Shown here in pieces: positions 41,039 through 53,353 of a DNA stretch of 53,812 nucleotides (its first letter is position 1; every line of letters starts with the position of its first letter). A program made the position numbers and the translations under genes. The DNA comes from Chloroflexota bacterium (GTDB taxonomy: Bacteria; Chloroflexota; Limnocylindria; Limnocylindrales; CSP1-4): assembly GCA_005889475.1 (NCBI GenBank), contig VBGT01000028.1, positions 1 through 53,812 of the forward strand, read 5' to 3'. Below the pieces are notes generated by a model. That model saw only the letters and a program-made list of their open reading frames with translations. It was not told where the DNA came from and ran no database searches.

Positions 41039-42925
41039 TCAACGGCGCGTGGTGAAGCTCACGCTCACATTCTCGACCGGCGCCCCGTCGAGCCCGGTGA
41101 CCCCCGAGACCTCGAACACGAATGTCGCCGTGCCGTGGAGGCGTCCACGCGGCCGGAAGGTCAGGGTGTGGGTCGTGTCGTTGTAGCTGACCGAGCCCTG
41201 CGTCACGACGGGCAGACCCTGCTGCCGCAGCAGGACGGTCGCACCTGAGACGTCCACGCTGTCGGAGTAGGTGACCGACGGGAGCACCGTTCGTGCCACG
41301 CCTGTAGCGCCGTCCGCGGGACTCGTACTCAACACGATTGCCCCCGCCGGCAAGCGGATGACACCCGCCTCGTCCGGGTCCGTCGTATTGCCGTTGGGGT
41401 TCCACCAGAAGGTCCCAACGTAGTCGCCGCCGTCCGGCGGGTCCGCACCCGCGTTGTATTCCCCCGCGCTCAAGCCGCGAATCGTGTAGTTGCCATCGCC
41501 ATCGGTGGAGGCGCTTGCTGCAAATTGGTGGTCCGTCTTCGAGGCGGAAACGTTTGCATTGGCGATCGGCTCACCGAGAGGTCCGCTGATGTGACCCGAG
41601 ATGGTGAACCCAGCGGGGACCACGACGTCGCGTGTCACATCGCTGCCAGAGACCACGATCGCATCGGCGTCGTCGACGTTCGACGACACACCCGTTGCGG
41701 TCACGTATCCGTCCTCATGCTCGAACGCGACCACGTACTCGGTGTACGCACCGTTTGGAAGATTCCAGAACGCGTACGACCCGCCGGCTCGGAGCGATGA
41801 TGACGCGCACCCGCCATCGCCGCAAAGGTTGATCGAGCCGTGCACGTCGAGTCCGTCGTCGCCCGTGAGGTGGCCGGTGATGCTGGGCGTGACGGGAACG
41901 GACAGATTCAAGCCAGTCACGTCACCGCCGCTCATGTCGATGTCGACAGCGCTGGATTGGTCGATGCTCAGAATCGTCGTGCCGTCGTAGACGCCGAGCG
42001 GAAACTGAACGTCAAGACCCTGGCCTTCGCCCTCTTCGACCAGGAGCTGCACTGGCTGGTCCGGCCAGAGCGCGGGGATTTGGTAATCGCCGTTCGGCGC
42101 GGTATCGAGGGAGTACCCGGCCGCCGAGTTCAGCGCCACGACCCTGGCCGGACGCGTCAGCCCGCCGATGTTCCCCGACAGCGTGTTCCCCGCCACGAGC
42201 GCGACGTCCTTGCCGTTGAGGTCGCCACTGACTTCGAACTACTCTCCACGGTAGCCTTCGACAACGGTGCCCCCATCGACCGGGCCAGGCATGAAGTTCG
42301 AGTCGATCGGCGGCCGGACGAACACGGTGAAGAACCCTGGCGCCAGCCCGCCGACGGCGAAATGCCCGGTGACGTCCGTATCGGTCGACCCGCCGCTACC
42401 GGTCCCGTTCACATCGACCTCGACGTCCGCCACGGGATCGACGCCATCGCTCACCGTGCCCGAGACGATGAAACCGGTTGCGAGCTTGATATCGATCCCG
42501 GTCGTGTTGCCTGCGACGACAAAGGGCGTGGCAAGAGCGGGATCGGTCGTGCTGGTCGGGCTCGCGTAGTAGGTGTTCAGGTGGTTGTGTGGGCTATCAC
42601 CATTCGCGAGCGCGAAGTACGTCCCAGCGACAACCCCGTGGATCGTGAACGTACCGTCAGCGGCAGTCGTGACGGAGCCGCCGCAGGACGTGGGATCGTC
42701 CGTGCAGACGCCGACAGCGATGCCGGCGACGCCGATGTCGCTCGCGTCGGTGATCGTCCCGGACACAGTGAAGCCCGTTGGGAACGAGAAATCGATGCCC
42801 TCGGCGCCCGCCGAGGTCGCGGCGACGGGCGTGACAATGCCAGCCTGGAGGACCGCGGCGATGCTGAGCGCGATCAGCAAGCGGCGACCGCGGACGGGCG
42901 CCATGCGCCCAATGAGGCTGGACAC
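41039..42925 (-). pseudogene. Secreted multi-domain protein with carboxypeptidase-regulatory-like repeats, split by one in-frame TAG
   Basis: Two track ORFs lie in one frame, separated only by TAG at 42239-42241 (codon 229), and together give 628 residues. A signal peptide is clear (LLIALSIAAVLQAGIVTPVAA). Several beta-sandwich repeats of the CarboxypepD_reg type follow (FTVSGTITDASDIGVAGIAV, FIVSGTVSDGVDPVADVEV, FTISGHISGPLGEPIANANV). A C-terminal Ig-like domain begins STSPADGATGVARTVLPSVT. The GTG at 42925 has a strong GGGAGG ribosome binding site. Codon use is less GC-biased than in neighbours, hinting at transfer. It may serve in adhesion or surface structure. The stop may be an assembly error. 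Confidence 0.75.
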
Positions 42926-43142
42926 GAAACCCTCCCTGCCCCGACATCCCGAAGCGCGGGCGTCCTGGACGCGGCAAGTATGCATGGGTGGCCTTCGGCG
43001 ATTCGCAAGACGCAGGTCCATCGCGGGATCGGCGCCGCCGTCCCTCCGTCCGCGCGGAGCCCCAACGTCCGCCTGTTAGCATTCGCCGCCCGACGCAGCC
43101 GCGACCGTCCCTTCCACCGCCGGTCGCCCATGGGAGTCCCGT

Positions 43143-44576: not shown

Positions 44577-45149
44577 GTGGCCGTGACGATCCGGAAGTGG
44601 GCGACGTTCGTCGAGGAGATCCACGAGGAGGGCGGCAAGCCCCTCGCGAGGCCGCTGCGCAAGGCCGCCGTCGCCGTCGTCGTCAAGAATCCCTACGCCG
44701 GCAAGAACGGCGACGACCTCACCGAGCTCATCGACTTCGGCGAGTACCTCGGCGACGAGCTGACCCGCCGCGCTCAGGAAGCGCTCGGCACACCGGTCGA
44801 GGCCTACGGCAAGGGCGGCATCGTGGGCGAGGCGGGCGAGCTCGAGCAGATCGCCGCCTGCCTGCACCCGAAGTTCGGGGCGCCGACGCGGACCCGTGTC
44901 GGCGGGGTCTCGATCCTGCCCTCGGTCAAGAAGCGCGGCGCGATGGGCGCCACCCTCGACATCCCGGTCCACCACATCAAGGCGATGCTCGTGCGCTCGC
45001 ACTTCGACGCGATGGAGATCCGGGTTCCCGACGCGCCGGCCGCCGACGAGCTGCTGCTCGCGCTCGCGGTCACCGACGGCGGCCGGCCGCACGCCCGCGT
45101 GGGCGGGCTCAAGGCCGAGGACGCAGTCGGTGAGGACGGGCTGCACTAG
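44577..45149 (+). CDS. Amino acid synthesis (AA_synth, DUF1185) family protein
   Basis: The 190-residue protein has the family pattern I recognise: TIRKWATFVEEIHEEGGKPL, then AAVAVVVKNPYAGKNGDDL, VEAYGKGGIVGEAGELEQIAA and the end DIPVHHIKAMLVRSHFDAME. The family is known mainly from structures without an established reaction, despite its name. It has a GGAGGAGG ribosome binding site and is followed 37 bases later by the enamidase gene. It probably works on the same substrate class as the neighbouring hydrolase and hydroxylase, but this is inference. Confidence 0.8.
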   Translation: MAVTIRKWATFVEEIHEEGGKPLARPLRKAAVAVVVKNPYAGKNGDDLTELIDFGEYLGDELTRRAQEALGTPVEAYGKGGIVGEAGELEQIAACLHPKFGAPTRTRVGGVSILPSVKKRGAMGATLDIPVHHIKAMLVRSHFDAMEIRVPDAPAADELLLALAVTDGGRPHARVGGLKAEDAVGEDGLH

Positions 45150-45186
45150 ATACTCGAGGGCAGCCGGGAGGCGCGGGCGAAATTCG

Positions 45187-46380
45187 ATGCGGACCCTCAT
45201 CACGAACATCGGCACGGTCGTCACCGGCGACATCGACGCGCCGATCGCCGAAGCTGACTCGATCCTCATCGAGGACGATCGGATCGCCGCGATCGGCCGC
45301 GGGCTTGATGGCGGCGCCGGCGCCGGTGGCGACCTCGACCAGACGATTGACGCCAAGGGCGCGACCGCACTGCCCGGGCTCATCGACTCCCACGCCCACC
45401 CGGTGTTCGGCGACTTCACGCCGCGCCAGCAGACGCTCAACTTCATCGAGTCAGGGCTGCACGGTGGCGTGACGTCGGTCATCTCCGCCGGTGAGGTGCA
45501 CCTGCCGGGCCGCCCGAAGGACATCGTCGGCCTGAAGGCGTTGGCGATCGTGGCCGCGAAGGCCTACGGCAATGTGCGGCCCGCGGGCGTCAAGGTGCGC
45601 GCCGGTGCCCCGATTCTCGAGCTCGGCCTCGAGGAGGCCGACTTTGCCGAGATGGCCGCCGCGGGCGTGTCGCTCGTCGGGGAGATCGGCCTCGGGAGCG
45701 TCAAGACAGGCGCGCAGGCGGCGCCGATGGTCGCCTGGGCGAAGCAGCACGGGATGACGGTGACGTTCCACACCGGCGGCCCATCGATCGCCGGCTCGAA
45801 CCCGATCGCGGCCGACGCGGTGCTCGAGGCCCGGCCGCACATCGTGGGGCACGTCAACGGCGGCACCACCCCGATGTCCGACGCGGACATCGAGCGCGTC
45901 GTCGACACCGACATGGCGATCGAGATCGTCCACTGCGGCAATGGCCGTGCCGCGATCCACGCGGTGAAGACCGCCGCGAGCCTGGACGCCTACCGGCGCG
46001 TGATCATCGGCAACGACGCGCCGTCGGGGACGGGTGTCGTCCCGCTCGGGATCCTCCGGGTGATGGCCCATCTCGCCTCGCTCGGGGACGTCGCACCTGA
46101 GGTCGCCGTGGCCATGGCGACCGGCAACACCGCGAGGGTGCACGGGCTCGACGTCGGGCTGCTTGCCATGGGTCGCGCCGCGGACGTCGTCCTGTGCGAC
46201 GCGCCGGTCGGTTCCTCCGCAGGCTCCGCGCTCGACGCCCTGGCGGTCGGTGACCTGCCCGGGATCTCGATGGCGTTGATCGACGGGGTGGTCATGATCG
46301 GCCGAAGCAGGAATACGCCACCGGCAGCCCGCGCCGCGGAGGTCGTCGGCGGGGGCGGGCCGGCGGCGGGCGGACATTGA
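45187..46380 (+). CDS. Enamidase-like amidohydrolase
   Basis: The 397-residue amidohydrolase resembles enamidase (Ena) of Eubacterium barkeri, which opens 1,4,5,6-tetrahydro-6-oxonicotinate to 2-formylglutarate. Shared features I recognise are the metal HxH in LIDSHAHPVFGDFTPRQQT, SAGEVHLPGRPKDIVGLKAL, GVSLVGEIGLGSVK, VTFHTGGPSIAGSNPI, GHVNGGTTPMSD, GNDAPSGTGVVPLGILR and the tail SRNTPPAARAAEVV. Agreement covers the whole length, so ring opening of a cyclic enamide or lactam is a good guess. The exact substrate is uncertain. It lies with an LLM oxidoreductase and a molybdenum hydroxylase. Confidence 0.88.
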   Translation: MRTLITNIGTVVTGDIDAPIAEADSILIEDDRIAAIGRGLDGGAGAGGDLDQTIDAKGATALPGLIDSHAHPVFGDFTPRQQTLNFIESGLHGGVTSVISAGEVHLPGRPKDIVGLKALAIVAAKAYGNVRPAGVKVRAGAPILELGLEEADFAEMAAAGVSLVGEIGLGSVKTGAQAAPMVAWAKQHGMTVTFHTGGPSIAGSNPIAADAVLEARPHIVGHVNGGTTPMSDADIERVVDTDMAIEIVHCGNGRAAIHAVKTAASLDAYRRVIIGNDAPSGTGVVPLGILRVMAHLASLGDVAPEVAVAMATGNTARVHGLDVGLLAMGRAADVVLCDAPVGSSAGSALDALAVGDLPGISMALIDGVVMIGRSRNTPPAARAAEVVGGGGPAAGGH

Positions 46381-46417
46381 TGCGCCTGCCGCGCGATGCC
46401 TGGCGGCGCGGGCTGCG

Positions 46418-47404
46418 ATGAAGTTCGGCCTTCGACTGCCGAGCTTCGCACTTGGTCCGGAGACCGCGAGCCTCGCGGACATGGGCGCCTACCTGCGCCG
46501 GGCCGAGGACCTCGGGTTCGAGACCGCGATGCTCATCGACCACCTGCTCGTCGCCCCGCCGGCGTATCGCGTCACCTGGCTCGAGCCCGTCTCGCTGCTC
46601 GCCGGGCTCTCGGGCGTCACGCGGACGATCCGCCTCGGCACCCTCGTGCTGGTCCTGCCGTTCCGCGATCCCGTCGCGTTCTCCAAGGAGTGGGGGACCC
46701 TCGACCTGCTCTCGGGCGGGCGCACGATCCTGGGGGTCGGTGTTGGCTGGAACCGCGAGGAGTTCGCGGCGCTGCGCATCCCGATCGAGGAGCGCGGCCG
46801 ACGGATGAACGAGATGCTCGAGGCGATCACGGCGCTGTGGGCAGGTGACGACGTCTCGTACGAGGGCCGCTACTACCGCTTCGAGCACCTGACGATCGAG
46901 CCGAAGCCGGCCCAGAAGCCGCACCCGCCGATCTGGATCGGCGGCGGCACCCAGCCGTCCGAGAAGATCTACGGCCAGGGCGTCGACACCGTCCAGCCGG
47001 TCCTGCGCCGGATCGCGAAGTACGCCTCGACCTGGGTGCCGCACTCCTCGGCCACGGCCGAGATGGTCGCCGGCGACTGGGCGGCGATCCAGGGCTACAT
47101 GGTCGAGCTCGGCCGGCGCCCCGACACGATGCAGCGTGTCTACTCGAACTTCGTCCACATCCTCGCCCCCGGCGAGCCGCCCGGGTCGGCCGCGCAGAAG
47201 TTCCGCGTCTACTCGGGCATGGACCTCGACTACTGGCAGGAGTTCTACCTGCTCGGCGAGGCCGACGCGGTCGCCGAGCGGATCCGGGGCAAGATCGAGG
47301 CGCTGGGCGGCGTCGACCACCTGGTGCTGAACCCGCTCGACTGGGACCCGCGCTCGATCGAGGTCCTCGCCGAACGCGTGCTGCCGCTGGTCGCGGCGGC
47401 ATAG
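46418..47404 (+). CDS. LLM-class (luciferase-like, F420- or FMN-dependent) oxidoreductase
   Basis: The 328-residue TIM-barrel protein has the family start MKFGLRLPSFALGPETAS, then EDLGFETAMLIDHLL, RTIRLGTLVLVLPFRDPVAF, and SGGRTILGVGVGWNREEFAA followed by RRMNEMLEAITALW and the PPIWIGGG motif. The pattern fits F420-dependent members, but FMN use (as in the pyrimidine monooxygenase RutA) cannot be excluded. It lies 37 bases after the enamidase gene and before the hydroxylase genes, so it probably catalyses a redox step on the ring. Confidence 0.85.
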   Translation: MKFGLRLPSFALGPETASLADMGAYLRRAEDLGFETAMLIDHLLVAPPAYRVTWLEPVSLLAGLSGVTRTIRLGTLVLVLPFRDPVAFSKEWGTLDLLSGGRTILGVGVGWNREEFAALRIPIEERGRRMNEMLEAITALWAGDDVSYEGRYYRFEHLTIEPKPAQKPHPPIWIGGGTQPSEKIYGQGVDTVQPVLRRIAKYASTWVPHSSATAEMVAGDWAAIQGYMVELGRRPDTMQRVYSNFVHILAPGEPPGSAAQKFRVYSGMDLDYWQEFYLLGEADAVAERIRGKIEALGGVDHLVLNPLDWDPRSIEVLAERVLPLVAAA

Positions 47405-47437
47405 CGCGGCCGGCAGCCGAGTCACGCGAGCAGACGG

Positions 47438-48295
47438 ATGGGCTCCTTCCTCCGACCGACCGAGCTCGATGCTGTACTCGGCGCCCTGGCGTCGGGCGGG
47501 CCAGGCGGGGCCCCCTGGGTGATCGTGGCGGGGGCGACGGACCACTACCCAGCGCGCGTCGGGCGCACGCTCGTCGAGGACGTCCTCGACGTCACCGCGA
47601 TCGCGTCGCTTCGAGGTGTGACCGAGGTCAACGGCGGCTGGCGGATCGGGGCGCTGACGACCTGGACGGACCTCGTCGAGACGCCGCTCCCGCCCCTGTT
47701 CGACGGGCTGAAAGCCGCCTCGCTGGCCGTCGGCGGCCTGCAGATCCAGGCCCGCGCCACGGTCGCCGGCAACGTCTGCAACGCCTCGCCGGCCGCCGAC
47801 GGAATCCCGAATCTGCTCGCGCTCGACGCCGAGGTGGAGCTTTCCTCCGGGAGCGGCGGGCGGCGCGTGCCGGTCGGCGGGTTCGTCGTGGGCAACCGGC
47901 GAACGCTGCGAGCGCCGGAGGAGCTGGTCACCGGCCTGTTCGTGCCAGCGCCGATCGACGGAACGACCGTCCGATCGGCATTCGAAAAGCTCGGCTCCCG
48001 CGCCTACCTCGTGATCTCCATCGCGATGGTGGCCGCGACGGTCGAGATCGCGGCCGACCGGGCGATCGCGAGGGCGCGCGTCGCGGTCGGCGCGTGCTCC
48101 GAGGTCGCACAGCGGCTGCCCTCCCTCGAGGCCGCGCTCGCGGGCGCCCCGGCGACCACGGAGAGCGCGGCAATCGCGCGCGCCGAGCATCTCGCGGGCC
48201 TGTCGCCGATCGACGACGTGCGCGGGACCGCGGCCTACCGTCGCGAGGTGGCACTGGAGCTCGTACACCGGGTCCTGCGCCGGGTGCTCGCGTGA
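47438..48295 (+). CDS. FAD-binding subunit of a molybdenum hydroxylase (CoxM/YgfM type)
   Basis: This 285-residue subunit passes electrons from the 2Fe-2S clusters to FAD. The FAD-binding motifs are VIVAGATDHYPARVG (usually AGGTD) and GGLQIQARATVAGNVCNASP, and the CO_deh_flav_C domain begins near AYLVISIAMVAATVEIAADR. Length is typical (YgfM of E. coli is similar). Its stop overlaps the GTG of the fused Fe-S/Mo subunit, so together they form a two-gene enzyme. Confidence 0.9.
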   Translation: MGSFLRPTELDAVLGALASGGPGGAPWVIVAGATDHYPARVGRTLVEDVLDVTAIASLRGVTEVNGGWRIGALTTWTDLVETPLPPLFDGLKAASLAVGGLQIQARATVAGNVCNASPAADGIPNLLALDAEVELSSGSGGRRVPVGGFVVGNRRTLRAPEELVTGLFVPAPIDGTTVRSAFEKLGSRAYLVISIAMVAATVEIAADRAIARARVAVGACSEVAQRLPSLEAALAGAPATTESAAIARAEHLAGLSPIDDVRGTAAYRREVALELVHRVLRRVLA

Positions 48296-51153
48296 CCGCG
48301 ACGCTGCCCAGCGCGGCGCAGCGCGAGGGCACGCTCAACTTCGAGCTGACGGTCAACGGCGAGCCTCGGACCGTCCGGGTCGAGCCGATGCGCAGGCTGT
48401 CGGATGTCCTGCGCGACGACCTCGGGCTGACCGGGACGAAGGTCGGTTGCGAGGCCGGCGACTGCGGCGCGTGCACGGTGCGAATCGGCGGGCGACAGGC
48501 CGAGGCGTGCCTCGTGCCGGTCGCCCAGGTCGTGGGCGAGGAGATCGTCACGGTCGAAGGCCTCGCGGCGGACAACGGCGTCGCCGGCGATCTCCAGGCC
48601 GCATTCCTCGAGCACGGGGCCGCGCAGTGCGGCATCTGTACGCCGGGCATGCTCATGGCTGCTCATGAGCTCCTGACACGGGACCCCGAGGCCGGCGACG
48701 CCGCGATCCGCGACGGAATCGGTGGCGTGCTCTGCCGGTGCACGGGCTACGTCAAGATCGTGGAGGCGATCGCGGCGACGCGGGATGCCCGGCTCGGGGG
48801 CGCGCAGTCGGCAGGCGCCGCGGTGGACCGACTCGCCACGGGACCGGCCGTCGGATCCCGAATGAACAAGGTCGATGGGCTCCCCCGCGTGCTCGGGACC
48901 GCGCGCTACGGTGCCGACGAGCGCCCGGATGGCGTCCTCGCGCTGCGCGCGGTGCGGTCGCCGCACGCGCGAGCGAGATTCGAGATCGGCGACCTCGCGC
49001 CGCTTCGGAAGCGCTACCCCGGGCTCGTCGACGTCTTCGCGGCGGCCGACGTGCCCGGCCAGAACCGGTACGGCGTCTACCCAACCGGAAAGGACCAGCC
49101 GGCCCTCGCCGACGGCGTCGTGCGCTACCGGGGCGAGGCGATTCTCGCCCTCGTGGGCGACGAGCGAACGCTGACCGCCATCGACGACCGCGAGCTGCCG
49201 ATCATCTGGGAGCCGCTGCCGCCGCTGCATAACCTCGACGACGCCCTCGCTGCCGGCGCGCCGGACCTCCACGAGGCTTCACCTGGCAACGTCCTGATCC
49301 GCGGCCGACTCGCCAGCGGTGATGTCGACGCCGCCCTCGCCGGCTCGGCCGTCACCGCCGAGATCGAGGTCGAGACGACGTTCGTCGAGCACGCCTACAT
49401 CGAGCCCGAGGCCGGCGTCGCACGACGCGTCGGCGACCGGCTCGAGCTGACGGTGAGCACCCAGGCGCCGTACATGGACCGCGACGAGGTCGCCCTGATC
49501 CTGGGCATCCCGCCGACGCAGGTCCGGATCATCCCGACCGCGTGCGGCGGCGGGTTCGGGGGCAAGCTCGACCTCGGCGTGCACCCGCTGCTTGCGATCG
49601 CGGCATGGCGCCTCGACCGGCCGGTGCGGGCGGTCTGGACGCGACCGGAGTCGATGGCCGCGAGCCCCAAGCGCCACCCGGCCCGGATCCGGGCGACCGC
49701 CGCCGCCGATGCGAACGGCCGGCTCACCGGCTTCCGCTTCCACGGCGACTTCGACACCGGTGCCTACGCATCGTGGGGTCCCACCGTCGCCAACCGCGTG
49801 CCGGTCCATGCGATGGGCCCGTATGCCTGGGGCGCCGTGCTCACGACGACCCGCGCCGTGTACACCAACAACCCGCCCGCCGGGGCGTTCCGAGGGTTCG
49901 GCGTGCCGCAGGCCGCGGTCGCCCACGAGGCGCTCATGGACGAGCTCGCCGCTCGCCTGAGCATCGACCCGCTGGAGCTCAGGCTTGCCAACGCCCTCAC
50001 GGCCGGGTCGACGACCGCGAGCGGCCAGCTCCTTCGGGCGAGCGCGGGGCTGGCGGCCTGTCTCGAGGCGCTGCGGCCGCACTGGCACCAGCTTCGCGAG
50101 GAAGCGGCCGCGGCGAATCGCTCGGCCGCGACCCGCTCGGCTGCCGGCGACAGCCCGCGACGAGGCGTCGGCATCGGTGCGATGTGGTACGGCATCGGCA
50201 ACACCGGCATCGCCAACCCGTCGACGATCGAGATCGGCGTCACGCCGGATGCCCGCGTGATCCTCTTCTGCGGCGCGGTCGACATCGGCCAGGGCGCATC
50301 GACCGTGCTCGTCCAGATCGCGGCGGATGCCCTCGGCGTCTCGCCGTCGGACATCGAGCTGGTCAGCGGCGACACCGATCGGACCGCCGATGCGGGCAAG
50401 TCGTCGGCCTCGCGCCAGACGTTCGTGTCCGGGAACGCCGCGCGCCTCGCCGGCGAGGACCTGCGCCGCCAGATCCTGCTGCTCGCCGAGGTCGGGCCGG
50501 ACGCGACGATCAGCCTCGAGTCGGGACGGATGCTCCTGACCGAGCCCGGGGACCGATCGACCGCGATCGAGCTGGCCGAGCTGCCGCCCGTGCCGGTGAC
50601 CGACACGGCAGCCTCGGTCGTCATCGCCGGTACGGGTCGCTTCGATCCGGACACGACGCCGCTCGACGCCGACGGCCAGGGCGTGCCGTACCAAACGTAT
50701 GCCTTCGGGGCGCAGGTCGCGGACGTCGAGGTCGATCCCGCGCTCGGCACCGTGAAGGTGCGGCGGATCGTTGCGGCCCACGACGTCGGTCGGGCGATCA
50801 ACCCCACCCAGGTCGAGGGCCAGATCCACGGCGGGATCGCCCAGGGCCTCGGGTTCGCGTTGATGGAGGCGTACGTGCCGGGTCGCACCGAGAACCTGCA
50901 TGACTACCTGATCCCGACGGTCGGCGATATGCCCGAGATCGAGTGTCTGTTGATCGAGGACGCTGAGCCGTCGGGCCCCTACGGCGCGAAGGGGGTGGGG
51001 GAGCCGGCGCTCGTCCCAACCGCCCCCGCGATCCTCGGCGCGATCCACGACGCCGTCGGCGTGCGGATCACGCAGCTGCCCGCGACGCCCGATCGGATCC
51101 GCGCGGCGATCGTGGCCGCCCGCGCGAGTGCAACTCCCGATCGGACAGACTGA
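48292..51153 (+). CDS. Fused 2Fe-2S and molybdopterin subunit of an XdhD-like hydroxylase
   Basis: The 953-residue chain fuses two normally separate subunits. Residues 15-165 are the 2Fe-2S part: plant-type cluster at C53, C58, C61, C73 (GCEAGDCGACTV) and the second at C113, C116, C148, C150 (CGICTPGM, CRCTGY). From about 190 comes the Mo part with CGGGFGGK (418-425), GAFRGFG (531-537) and GPYGAKGVGEPAL with the catalytic Glu904. E. coli XdhD has almost the same size and layout. It should hydroxylate an N-heterocycle next to a ring nitrogen. The GTG overlaps the FAD-subunit stop. The Mo-cofactor chaperone gene xdhC is not in the window. Confidence 0.93.
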   Translation: MTATLPSAAQREGTLNFELTVNGEPRTVRVEPMRRLSDVLRDDLGLTGTKVGCEAGDCGACTVRIGGRQAEACLVPVAQVVGEEIVTVEGLAADNGVAGDLQAAFLEHGAAQCGICTPGMLMAAHELLTRDPEAGDAAIRDGIGGVLCRCTGYVKIVEAIAATRDARLGGAQSAGAAVDRLATGPAVGSRMNKVDGLPRVLGTARYGADERPDGVLALRAVRSPHARARFEIGDLAPLRKRYPGLVDVFAAADVPGQNRYGVYPTGKDQPALADGVVRYRGEAILALVGDERTLTAIDDRELPIIWEPLPPLHNLDDALAAGAPDLHEASPGNVLIRGRLASGDVDAALAGSAVTAEIEVETTFVEHAYIEPEAGVARRVGDRLELTVSTQAPYMDRDEVALILGIPPTQVRIIPTACGGGFGGKLDLGVHPLLAIAAWRLDRPVRAVWTRPESMAASPKRHPARIRATAAADANGRLTGFRFHGDFDTGAYASWGPTVANRVPVHAMGPYAWGAVLTTTRAVYTNNPPAGAFRGFGVPQAAVAHEALMDELAARLSIDPLELRLANALTAGSTTASGQLLRASAGLAACLEALRPHWHQLREEAAAANRSAATRSAAGDSPRRGVGIGAMWYGIGNTGIANPSTIEIGVTPDARVILFCGAVDIGQGASTVLVQIAADALGVSPSDIELVSGDTDRTADAGKSSASRQTFVSGNAARLAGEDLRRQILLLAEVGPDATISLESGRMLLTEPGDRSTAIELAELPPVPVTDTAASVVIAGTGRFDPDTTPLDADGQGVPYQTYAFGAQVADVEVDPALGTVKVRRIVAAHDVGRAINPTQVEGQIHGGIAQGLGFALMEAYVPGRTENLHDYLIPTVGDMPEIECLLIEDAEPSGPYGAKGVGEPALVPTAPAILGAIHDAVGVRITQLPATPDRIRAAIVAARASATPDRTD

Positions 51154-51158
51154 CGGCC

Positions 51159-52106
51159 ATGCCAACGAAGGTGATCCTCGACGTCGACACTGGCACCGAC
51201 GACGCCGTCGCCCTGATGACCGCCGCGCTGTCGCCGGATCTCGAGCTCGTTGGCGCGACGACGGTCAACGGCAACACGACCATCGACAACACGACCGAGA
51301 ACACGCTGCGGGTCTTCGACTGGATCGGGCTGCCGGAAATCCCGGTCCACCGCGGCATGGACCGGCCGCTCGCCAGGACGCAGATGCAGCAGCTGAACCC
51401 TGCGAGCCGAATCCACGGCGCCCTGCTCGACCTGCCGCCGGCCCCGACCGCGAAGCTGCGGCCTGGTCACGCCGTCGACTGGCTGATCGAGACGTACCTC
51501 GCCTCGGACGGCGACATCGTGCTCTGCCCCGTCGGGCCGCTGACGAACATCGCCACGGCCATCCAGAAGGAGCCCCGGATCCTGGAGAAGATCCCCCAGA
51601 TCGTGATCATGGGCGGCGCGCACGACCACGGGAACGCCACTGCCTCCGCGGAGTTCAACATCTGGCTCGACCCGGAGGCCGCGCGGATCGTCGTCAACTG
51701 TGGCCGGCCGATCCGGATGGTCCCGCTCGACGCGACCCATCGGGCGCTCGTGTCGAAGGAGGACGCCGGGCGGCTGCGGGCCCTTGGGACGCCCGCGGGA
51801 GAGGCGGCTGCTCGCTTCGTGCTGAAGCGGATCGACGGCTACGACGCCACGCAGCCAATGCCCCACCGGGCCGGCGCGGCGCCAGTCCACGACGCACTCG
51901 CGGTGTGCTCGATCATCGATCCGTCCATCGTGACGACGCACCAGATCCCGGTGGACGTCGAGGTCCATGCGGAGCTGTCGGTGGGGCGGACCGTGTGCGA
52001 CTTCCGGTTCCGCAGCGGCAAGCCCGCCAACGTCGACTTCGCCACGGACGCCGACGAGCCGAAGTTCGTGGGGATGCTTCTGGACCTCCTGGGCCGGACC
52101 GCTTGA
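51159..52106 (+). CDS. Inosine-uridine preferring nucleoside hydrolase family
   Basis: The 315-residue enzyme hydrolyses the N-glycosidic bond of ribonucleosides with a bound calcium. It has the calcium motif VILDVDTGTDDAVALMTAAL, the region VGPLTNIATAIQKEP, GGAHDHGNATASAEFNIWLDP and the C-terminal PVHDALAVCSIIDPSI with the last metal Asp. Length is normal. It follows the hydroxylase gene by five bases and may supply a free nucleobase or nicotinate-type base to it. Substrate cannot be deduced. Confidence 0.93.
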   Translation: MPTKVILDVDTGTDDAVALMTAALSPDLELVGATTVNGNTTIDNTTENTLRVFDWIGLPEIPVHRGMDRPLARTQMQQLNPASRIHGALLDLPPAPTAKLRPGHAVDWLIETYLASDGDIVLCPVGPLTNIATAIQKEPRILEKIPQIVIMGGAHDHGNATASAEFNIWLDPEAARIVVNCGRPIRMVPLDATHRALVSKEDAGRLRALGTPAGEAAARFVLKRIDGYDATQPMPHRAGAAPVHDALAVCSIIDPSIVTTHQIPVDVEVHAELSVGRTVCDFRFRSGKPANVDFATDADEPKFVGMLLDLLGRTA

Positions 52107-52112
52107 CGCCGC

Positions 52113-52131
52113 GCCTGGCGATCCGTCAGGC
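52113..52131. terminator. Convergent terminator hairpin
   Basis: GCCTGGCG and CGTCAGGC pair over eight positions (one G-U on the plus-strand RNA) with a three-base loop. It lies between the convergent nucleoside hydrolase and NTF2-like genes and overlaps the stop codon of the latter. No T tract is present. Confidence 0.5.
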
Positions 52132-52536
52132 CGGGCACCAGAGCGCGTTGAGGATCCGCCAGCCGTCCGCCGTCCGGACGAGGTGGAGGTAGTCGACGTA
52201 TGGGACGGCGTGGACCACAACGGCCGCGACATCGCCGTAGACGTCGTTGATCTCGGCGCGGTACCGGCGCCCGGCTTCATCGGTTCGGCGACCCTGCCCT
52301 GCTCGGGTCCATTCGATCATGCTGCTGAACGTGTCGGGATCGATTCTCGGGACATCGGCGCCGATGTCGTGCCAGCCTCGCTTTGCGAGGTCGGGGTGCA
52401 ATGCGCGGGCCATGCGCTCGGCGTCGCCGTCGTACCAGCCCAGGTAGTAGTCGTCGATTGTGGCCCGGATGTCCGCCTCGTCCGCGCCCTTGATCGCGTG
52501 GGCCGTCGCGACGCCATCCGCCAACGCGTCCGCCAT
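52126..52536 (-). CDS. NTF2/SnoaL-like protein of unknown function
   Basis: The 136-residue protein fits the cone-shaped NTF2-like fold: an N-terminal helix (ADIRATIDDYYLGWYDGDAE), RMARALHPDLAKRGW, then strands (DVAAVVVHAVPYVDYLHLVR) and the end GWRILNALWCPA. Members act as small-molecule binding proteins or enzymes, sometimes as lumazine-binding relatives; no catalytic set is evident. It has the ribosome binding site AAGGAGG seven bases before the ATG. The large track ORF upstream of it is a shadow. Confidence 0.75.
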   Translation of the reverse strand: MADALADGVATAHAIKGADEADIRATIDDYYLGWYDGDAERMARALHPDLAKRGWHDIGADVPRIDPDTFSSMIEWTRAGQGRRTDEAGRRYRAEINDVYGDVAAVVVHAVPYVDYLHLVRTADGWRILNALWCPA

Positions 52537-52562
52537 CGTCGAACCTCCTTCTCGCGCCGCGG

Positions 52563-53353
52563 CTACTCCGTGCCGCCCGGACCGCCTGGCTCCTTGCCTT
52601 TTGGCCAGTACAGCTCCTTCTTGACCTGCTCCTCGCGGAAGCCACGGGCCAGGAGCGTTTCCTCTGCAGCGATGATCATGTCCGGGTTGCCACAGATGTA
52701 GGCGATCGTGTCGGCAGGCGTCAGGCTGAGCTCGTCGAGCACGGGCGCCACGATTGACTCGACCCGGCCGGTCCGCCCGGTCCAGCCTTCGTTCTCCGGC
52801 GCCGTGGGCCGCGAGACCGTGGGGATGAAGGTGACCGGGTAGCCACCGTCGCGCTCCCAGCCCTCGATCAGCTCTCGGTAGCCAAGGTCGCGCTCGTACG
52901 ACACGCCGTTGAGGAAGATCGTCCTTCGCGGGGCGCCATCGACGAGCAGCTGCCGCATCATCGCGACGAACGGGGCGTTGCCGGTGCCCGACGAGATGTA
53001 GAGGTGCGTTCGGTCGTCGTCGGGCTCGAGCGTGAACTTGCCCTTCGGCCCGATCATGCGCATCCGGTGCCCAAGCGGAAGTCGCCACAGGAGCGGCGTG
53101 AACAGCCCGCCCTCGACCAGCCGCACGTACATCTCGTAGCCGTCCGAGCCCGCGACTGCCGGTGGCGACGCCACGGAATATGGGCGTTGGACGATCCGCG
53201 GCGGCGCGCCGGCCTCGCCCTCGACGAACACCCCTCCGCGTCGAAGCGGACCCAGAACGTCGAGAGTGACTCGGTCGCGTCCTCGCGACCGACGAGCGCG
53301 GCGTTGTACTGGGGCGCGTCCCTGACGACGACGCGCTCGTCAAGCTCGAGCAT
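52563..53353 (-). pseudogene. Ferredoxin-NADP(+) reductase with a single-base frameshift
   Basis: FNR exchanges electrons between ferredoxin or flavodoxin and NADPH. The N-terminal piece (MLELDERVVVRDAPQYNAAL, then STFWVRFDAEG) runs in one frame and VFVEGEAG, RPYSVASPP, HLYISSGTGNAPFVAMMRQL, YICGNPDMIIAAEE and KKELYWPKG in another. The switch falls at a GGGG run near plus position 53230; one more G would restore a 263-residue FNR of normal length. Either a sequencing deletion or a true lesion is possible. ATG 53353 has TACCAT seven bases upstream (leaderless). The track lists only the 3' part. Confidence 0.8.

Follow-up and report, generated by a model that had tools for sequence, protein, structure and literature searches.

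Six consecutive genes in an uncultured Chloroflexota genome raise the question of which heterocyclic compound they would break down, and of which enzyme would reduce its ring. A sequence-only reading of this DNA had pointed out six consecutive same-strand genes, and all six are indeed intact on the + strand between positions 44577 and 52106 of the window, that is, the whole stretch of DNA that was analysed (53,812 nucleotides). Intergenic spacing within the block runs from -4 to about 37 bp, and each of the six genes has a strong family-profile match (Table 1). The FAD-subunit gene and the gene for the fused FeS/Mo subunit, which overlap by 4 bp, make up the "two-gene molybdenum hydroxylase" described in that reading. 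The enamidase gene starts with the ATG at 45187; the query of the enamidase search began at 45181, six bases 5' of it. We favour, at a probability of roughly 0.5, the reading that the operon serves the initial part of the reductive nicotinate breakdown known from Eubacterium barkeri and Azorhizobium, with the middle step changed so that the LLM-class oxidoreductase reduces the ring.

Table 1. Genes of the six-gene block, in window coordinates.
Gene product	Coordinates	Strand	Length	Matches and domains
AA_synth (PF06684, DUF1185)	44577..45149	+	190 aa	Pfam 221 bits
Enamidase homologue (6-oxo-1,4,5,6-tetrahydronicotinate hydrolase)	45187..46380	+	397 aa	432 bits to E. barkeri 2vun
LLM-class oxidoreductase, TIGR03619 "F420-dependent" family	46418..47404	+	328 aa	PF00296
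FAD subunit of molybdenum hydroxylase, XdhB/CoxM type	47438..48295	+	285 aa	PF00941 + PF03450
Fused 2Fe-2S + molybdopterin subunit	48292..51153	+	953 aa	Fer2, Fer2_2, Ald_Xan_dh_C, MoCoBD_1, MoCoBD_2
Nucleoside hydrolase, inosine-uridine family	51159..52106	+	315 aa	PF01156 287 bits

The gene set is conserved in relatives, as the sequence-only reading expected. An enamidase gene was found in 12 of the 15 genus genomes, at 80-88% identity to the window copy over most of its length (one copy is a fragment). Read by tblastn, the loci show the genes for AA_synth, enamidase, LLM, FAD subunit and FeS/Mo subunit side by side, in constant order, on all genus contigs that are long enough, some contigs being short, and the nucleoside hydrolase lies downstream of this block on all contigs that reach that far. 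With this frequency and this constant order, the six-gene grouping is more than chance. All six genes have dN/dS values of 0.12-0.31 in the two comparisons made, and are therefore under purifying selection. A glycyl-tRNA synthetase gene lies upstream of the block in the window and in L061, L062, L140, L141 and L147, and was not found within the 2.7-3.1 kb upstream of the block in L143, L144 and L145; the intact block thus occurs in at least two chromosomal settings. The complete six-gene set was not seen outside the genus, and the block itself contains no transporter or later pathway gene. Both flanks of the operon in the window carry - strand genes. At 41039-43021 there are two consecutive repeat-type ORFs that resemble each other, perhaps one gene frameshifted near 42200, and at 52129-53231 a SnoaL-like (Lumazine_bd_2) gene and a flavin/ferredoxin-reductase-like gene point towards the operon. 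The reductase-like gene is again seen close to the operon in L062 and, weakly, in L061.

The substrate is indicated by two of the enzymes. The window enamidase is 55.1% identical over 381 residues to the E. barkeri enamidase, which itself shares a lower 44-50% identity with the enamidases of proteobacterial clusters, and the DSHAH, GEIGLG, HTGG, HVNGG and NDAPSGTG motifs of the window protein align with 2vun. In the enamidase tree, the closest neighbours of the window copy are proteobacterial enamidases encoded beside the 6-hydroxynicotinate reductase Hnr (support 90/92). The molybdenum hydroxylase leads to the same clusters. In a tree of one region, its Mo subunit is nested in the clade of proteobacterial Hnr clusters (support 100/100), as sister (98/93) to a Hyphomicrobiales copy that adjoins Hnr, enamidase and AA_synth genes; in the same one-region tree, the E. 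barkeri Mo subunits and those of the Hnr-cluster clade do not form a single clade. Compared over one region with four solved enzymes, the Mo subunit is most similar to E. barkeri nicotinate dehydrogenase 3hrd (40% versus 27-32%), and its identity is 59.7% to the Hnr-cluster copy of L025 versus 30.8% to human XDH. Based on these comparisons, the FAD and fused FeS/Mo subunits are proposed to form a nicotinate 6-hydroxylase.

It is well supported by sequence comparison that the enamidase and Mo subunit placements agree on one substrate, nicotinate, and we regard a nicotinate-type substrate as probable. The likeness to the E. barkeri sequence of Mo hydroxylase, reductase and enamidase, drawn in the sequence-only reading, holds up for both of these enzymes. 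The same reading had named placement in unrelated, already characterised substrate clades as the result that would speak against it. In the part of this comparison that was carried out, the hydroxylase does fall into a described clade, but it is that of the nicotinate clusters, and the enamidase is nearest to the characterised enamidase. A purine or pyrimidine substrate had also been entertained; for the Mo enzyme, a purine/xanthine or uracil reading is rejected, because the Mo subunit stands apart from xanthine dehydrogenase in a tree that took in one XDH, without XdhD.

The nucleoside hydrolase carries a DxDxxxDD motif at residue 8. Its best solved match is the cytidine/uridine hydrolase 6ba0, and it resembles pyrimidine nucleoside hydrolases. 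This resemblance could mean that the operon degrades another N-heterocycle, a hydroxypyridine or a pyrimidine freed by the nucleoside hydrolase, and merely looks like nicotinate catabolism. Enamidase homologues are also found in neighbourhoods that lack Hnr and a Mo enzyme, where their companions include an FAD monooxygenase, or dihydropyrimidinase-like and isochorismatase-like genes, and the family therefore has other substrates. Since the window enamidase stands nearest to the characterised enzyme, and the Mo subunit lies in the Hnr-cluster clade and away from xanthine dehydrogenase, we consider another heterocycle improbable.

The position of the nucleoside hydrolase gene bears on the extent of the functional unit. 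It follows the block after 5 bp in the window and after 295-2765 bp in other genus members; in L144, a secreted lysozyme-like ORF intervenes, and no nucleoside hydrolase was seen in the proteobacterial clusters. It may be, then, that the true unit consists of AA_synth, enamidase and hydroxylase, the nucleoside hydrolase being an unrelated neighbour and the LLM perhaps another. This is unlikely, given that the nucleoside hydrolase follows the block wherever the contig reaches it, including in the other chromosomal setting, and that the LLM gene is always between those of the enamidase and the FAD subunit. Nicotinamide riboside and uridine are cleaved with about equal efficiency by URH1p, a group I enzyme of yeast (PMC11241417), and a nicotinate-related riboside is therefore a possible substrate for the nucleoside hydrolase. 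By this analogy it plausibly releases a pyridine base from a riboside; it is the weakest member of the proposal.

A nicotinate-type pathway leads to the question of the ring reductase, which is expected because the enamidase needs a partly reduced ring. Hnr was not found in any of the 15 genus genomes, and the same search was positive for G114, a member of the Chloroflexota whose genome carries an Hnr-type cluster. With none in 15 genomes and with G114 as positive control, we reject the explanations that Hnr is encoded elsewhere in the genome or has been lost to incomplete assembly. In G114 itself (L064:3269-6202), Hnr forms a fusion that encloses an NADPH-type Fe-S/FAD oxidoreductase module, and nearby genes include one of the isochorismatase family and a sodium:solute symporter. 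A UPF0280 gene adjoins every Hnr examined (L049, L059, L019-L022, L024-L026 and L064), and none was found near any genus block examined, at the level of locus neighbourhoods. UPF0280 has weak similarity to ApbE, by which it may mature Hnr through flavin attachment. At the locus, the LLM gene occupies the place of both Hnr and UPF0280. The LLM thus stands where a ferredoxin-type reductase would be, as the sequence-only reading had suggested; that it performs the ring reduction is, in our judgement, somewhat probable.

The LLM scores 196.9 bits against TIGR03619 (cut-off 166.9). Its relatives at E<=1e-70 are confined to this genus among 301 phylum genomes, and none was found in plasmids at 1e-30. 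Structure prediction gave a pLDDT of 49.5, the alignment being too shallow and the model unusable. In two other Chloroflexota families, the gene of a distant enamidase homologue lies next to that of another LLM, one whose best scores are to F420/Mer families (L066:8827-11093 and L067:1908-4091); these distant pairs suggest, without proving it, that the enamidase-LLM pairing arose more than once.

The "F420-dependent" label of TIGR03619 is no proof of the cofactor, and some members of the LLM superfamily use FMN, among them FMN monooxygenases (PMC6279831). One possibility is accordingly that the nicotinate pathway holds, while the LLM is an FMN monooxygenase or accessory protein and an unrelated enzyme encoded elsewhere reduces the ring. 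The F420 gene set is incomplete: cofH, for F0 synthase, was not found in the window genome (G000) or in the three nearest relatives tested (G155, G211 and G058), so that making F420 would take F0 from outside or an unrecognised enzyme. The flavin/ferredoxin-reductase-like gene just downstream (52566-53231), which L062 also has, speaks for this possibility, but it is encoded on the other strand, and in most members the neighbourhood of the block did not show it. Against this possibility also stand the missing Hnr, the LLM score above the F420-family cut-off, and the presence of cofD, cofC and cofE, all above cut-off, as one cluster in the window genome (G000:C106:6153-8551, L150). We therefore hold an FMN-dependent LLM combined with a separate reductase to be rather unlikely, and, if the LLM is the ring reductase, we think it likely that F420 rather than FMN is its cofactor. 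In the Hnr-bearing G114, neither cofD nor cofE was found. A literature search for F420 together with hydroxynicotinate returned nothing relevant, most subscription papers being outside its scope.

To our knowledge, two crystal structures and no function are known for the AA_synth/DUF1185 family. The window protein matches the SPO0826 structure 2qtp with 182 bits, and its predicted fold (pLDDT 84) has a TM score of 0.86 to 3byq. These two DUF1185 structures are the only significant fold matches of the model, and RidA-like or cyclic-amide-hydrolase relatives were rejected on this ground. AA_synth structures have a chorismate-mutase-like fold (PMC2954203). In the phylum sample, enamidase is present in 11 genomes and AA_synth above cut-off in 13, and both occur in 6 against 0.5 expected (p 7e-7); with the genus counted as one genome, both occur in 4 against 0.3 expected (p 1e-4). 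The AA_synth-enamidase pair is also present in fermenters of the Bacillota, in aerobic Proteobacteria, in Thermomicrobium and in plasmids of Rhizobiales, and Rhodococcus-type and Haloarcula enamidase copies are without AA_synth. The routes of fermenters and aerobes coincide no further than 2-formylglutarate, so AA_synth most likely acts at or before this compound. From this distribution, AA_synth probably works at, or next to, ring opening, a link that, if true, makes an orphan protein family directly testable. In the Rhizobiales plasmid loci L052, L057 and L058, AA_synth-enamidase pairs are accompanied by a GntR regulator; two of the three loci also carry an FAD monooxygenase and a DUF4286 protein, perhaps as part of another heterocycle pathway.

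For the favoured pathway, in which the LLM reduces the ring, we infer substrates, reactions and cofactor as follows. The Mo hydroxylase would convert nicotinate to 6-hydroxynicotinate. The LLM, instead of the iron-sulfur Hnr, would convert 6-hydroxynicotinate to 1,4,5,6-tetrahydro-6-oxonicotinate in a net two-electron reduction. A hydride would pass from F420H2 to C4, which is conjugate to the C6 carbonyl, and C5 would be protonated, leaving the C2=C3 enamide for the enamidase. With a redox potential of -340 to -380 mV (PMC8498797), F420 would be a suitable hydride donor. The enamidase would then open the tetrahydro-6-oxonicotinate ring with release of ammonia, giving 2-formylglutarate, and AA_synth would assist at, or directly after, this opening. 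The nucleoside hydrolase may supply nicotinate or nicotinamide by cleaving the corresponding riboside. A more specific version can be offered tentatively, with the odds against it: the LLM would be an F420H2-dependent 6-hydroxynicotinate reductase that replaces Hnr, and with it the need for UPF0280, using imported F0, and AA_synth would be a new ring-opening enzyme, for example an enamine hydrolase acting with the enamidase. If the proposed reduction by the LLM is true, it adds an F420-dependent step to pyridine-ring degradation, and in uncultured Chloroflexota a reductase of an oxygen-sensitive type has given way to a non-homologous enzyme.

The sequence-only reading had regarded the gene set as belonging to no described pathway. 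This goes too far, as clusters with the hydroxylase, 6-hydroxynicotinate reductase and enamidase have been described in Azorhizobium caulinodans and in Bradyrhizobiaceae, Bradyrhizobium among them (PMC3511419), and AA_synth genes are seen inside such clusters. The homologous proteobacterial clusters examined here contain the Mo hydroxylase, Hnr, UPF0280, one or two AA_synth genes, the enamidase and often an ABC transporter. The window shares with them the nicotinate-type Mo hydroxylase, the enamidase and AA_synth. In contrast, it has no Hnr, UPF0280 or ABC transporter at the locus, it has an LLM and a nucleoside hydrolase in addition, and its host is a member of Chloroflexota. With the E. barkeri/Oscillospiraceae cluster it has in common the enamidase (55%) and a hydroxylase whose nearest solved relative is nicotinate dehydrogenase; in the Oscillospiraceae-type loci L022 and L024, AA_synth adjoins the enamidase, as in the window. 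The E. barkeri type differs in having Hnr and a Mo subunit split in two, whereas the window has a single Mo subunit fused to the FeS part. Because Hnr is absent, the window cluster is a variant, not a strict member, of the reductive nicotinate clusters. We know of no F420-dependent LLM of the TIGR03619 type that reduces a pyridine ring acid. Compared with the F420-dependent LLM enzymes, whose better-known relatives are Mer and Fgd, the window protein is above the family cut-off and its genome has the tail genes of F420 synthesis, whereas the genomes tested of its group yielded no F0 synthase. While the type of pathway is already known, what the locus adds to it is a different enzyme in the reductase's place, probably linked to F420, and a clue to the role of AA_synth.
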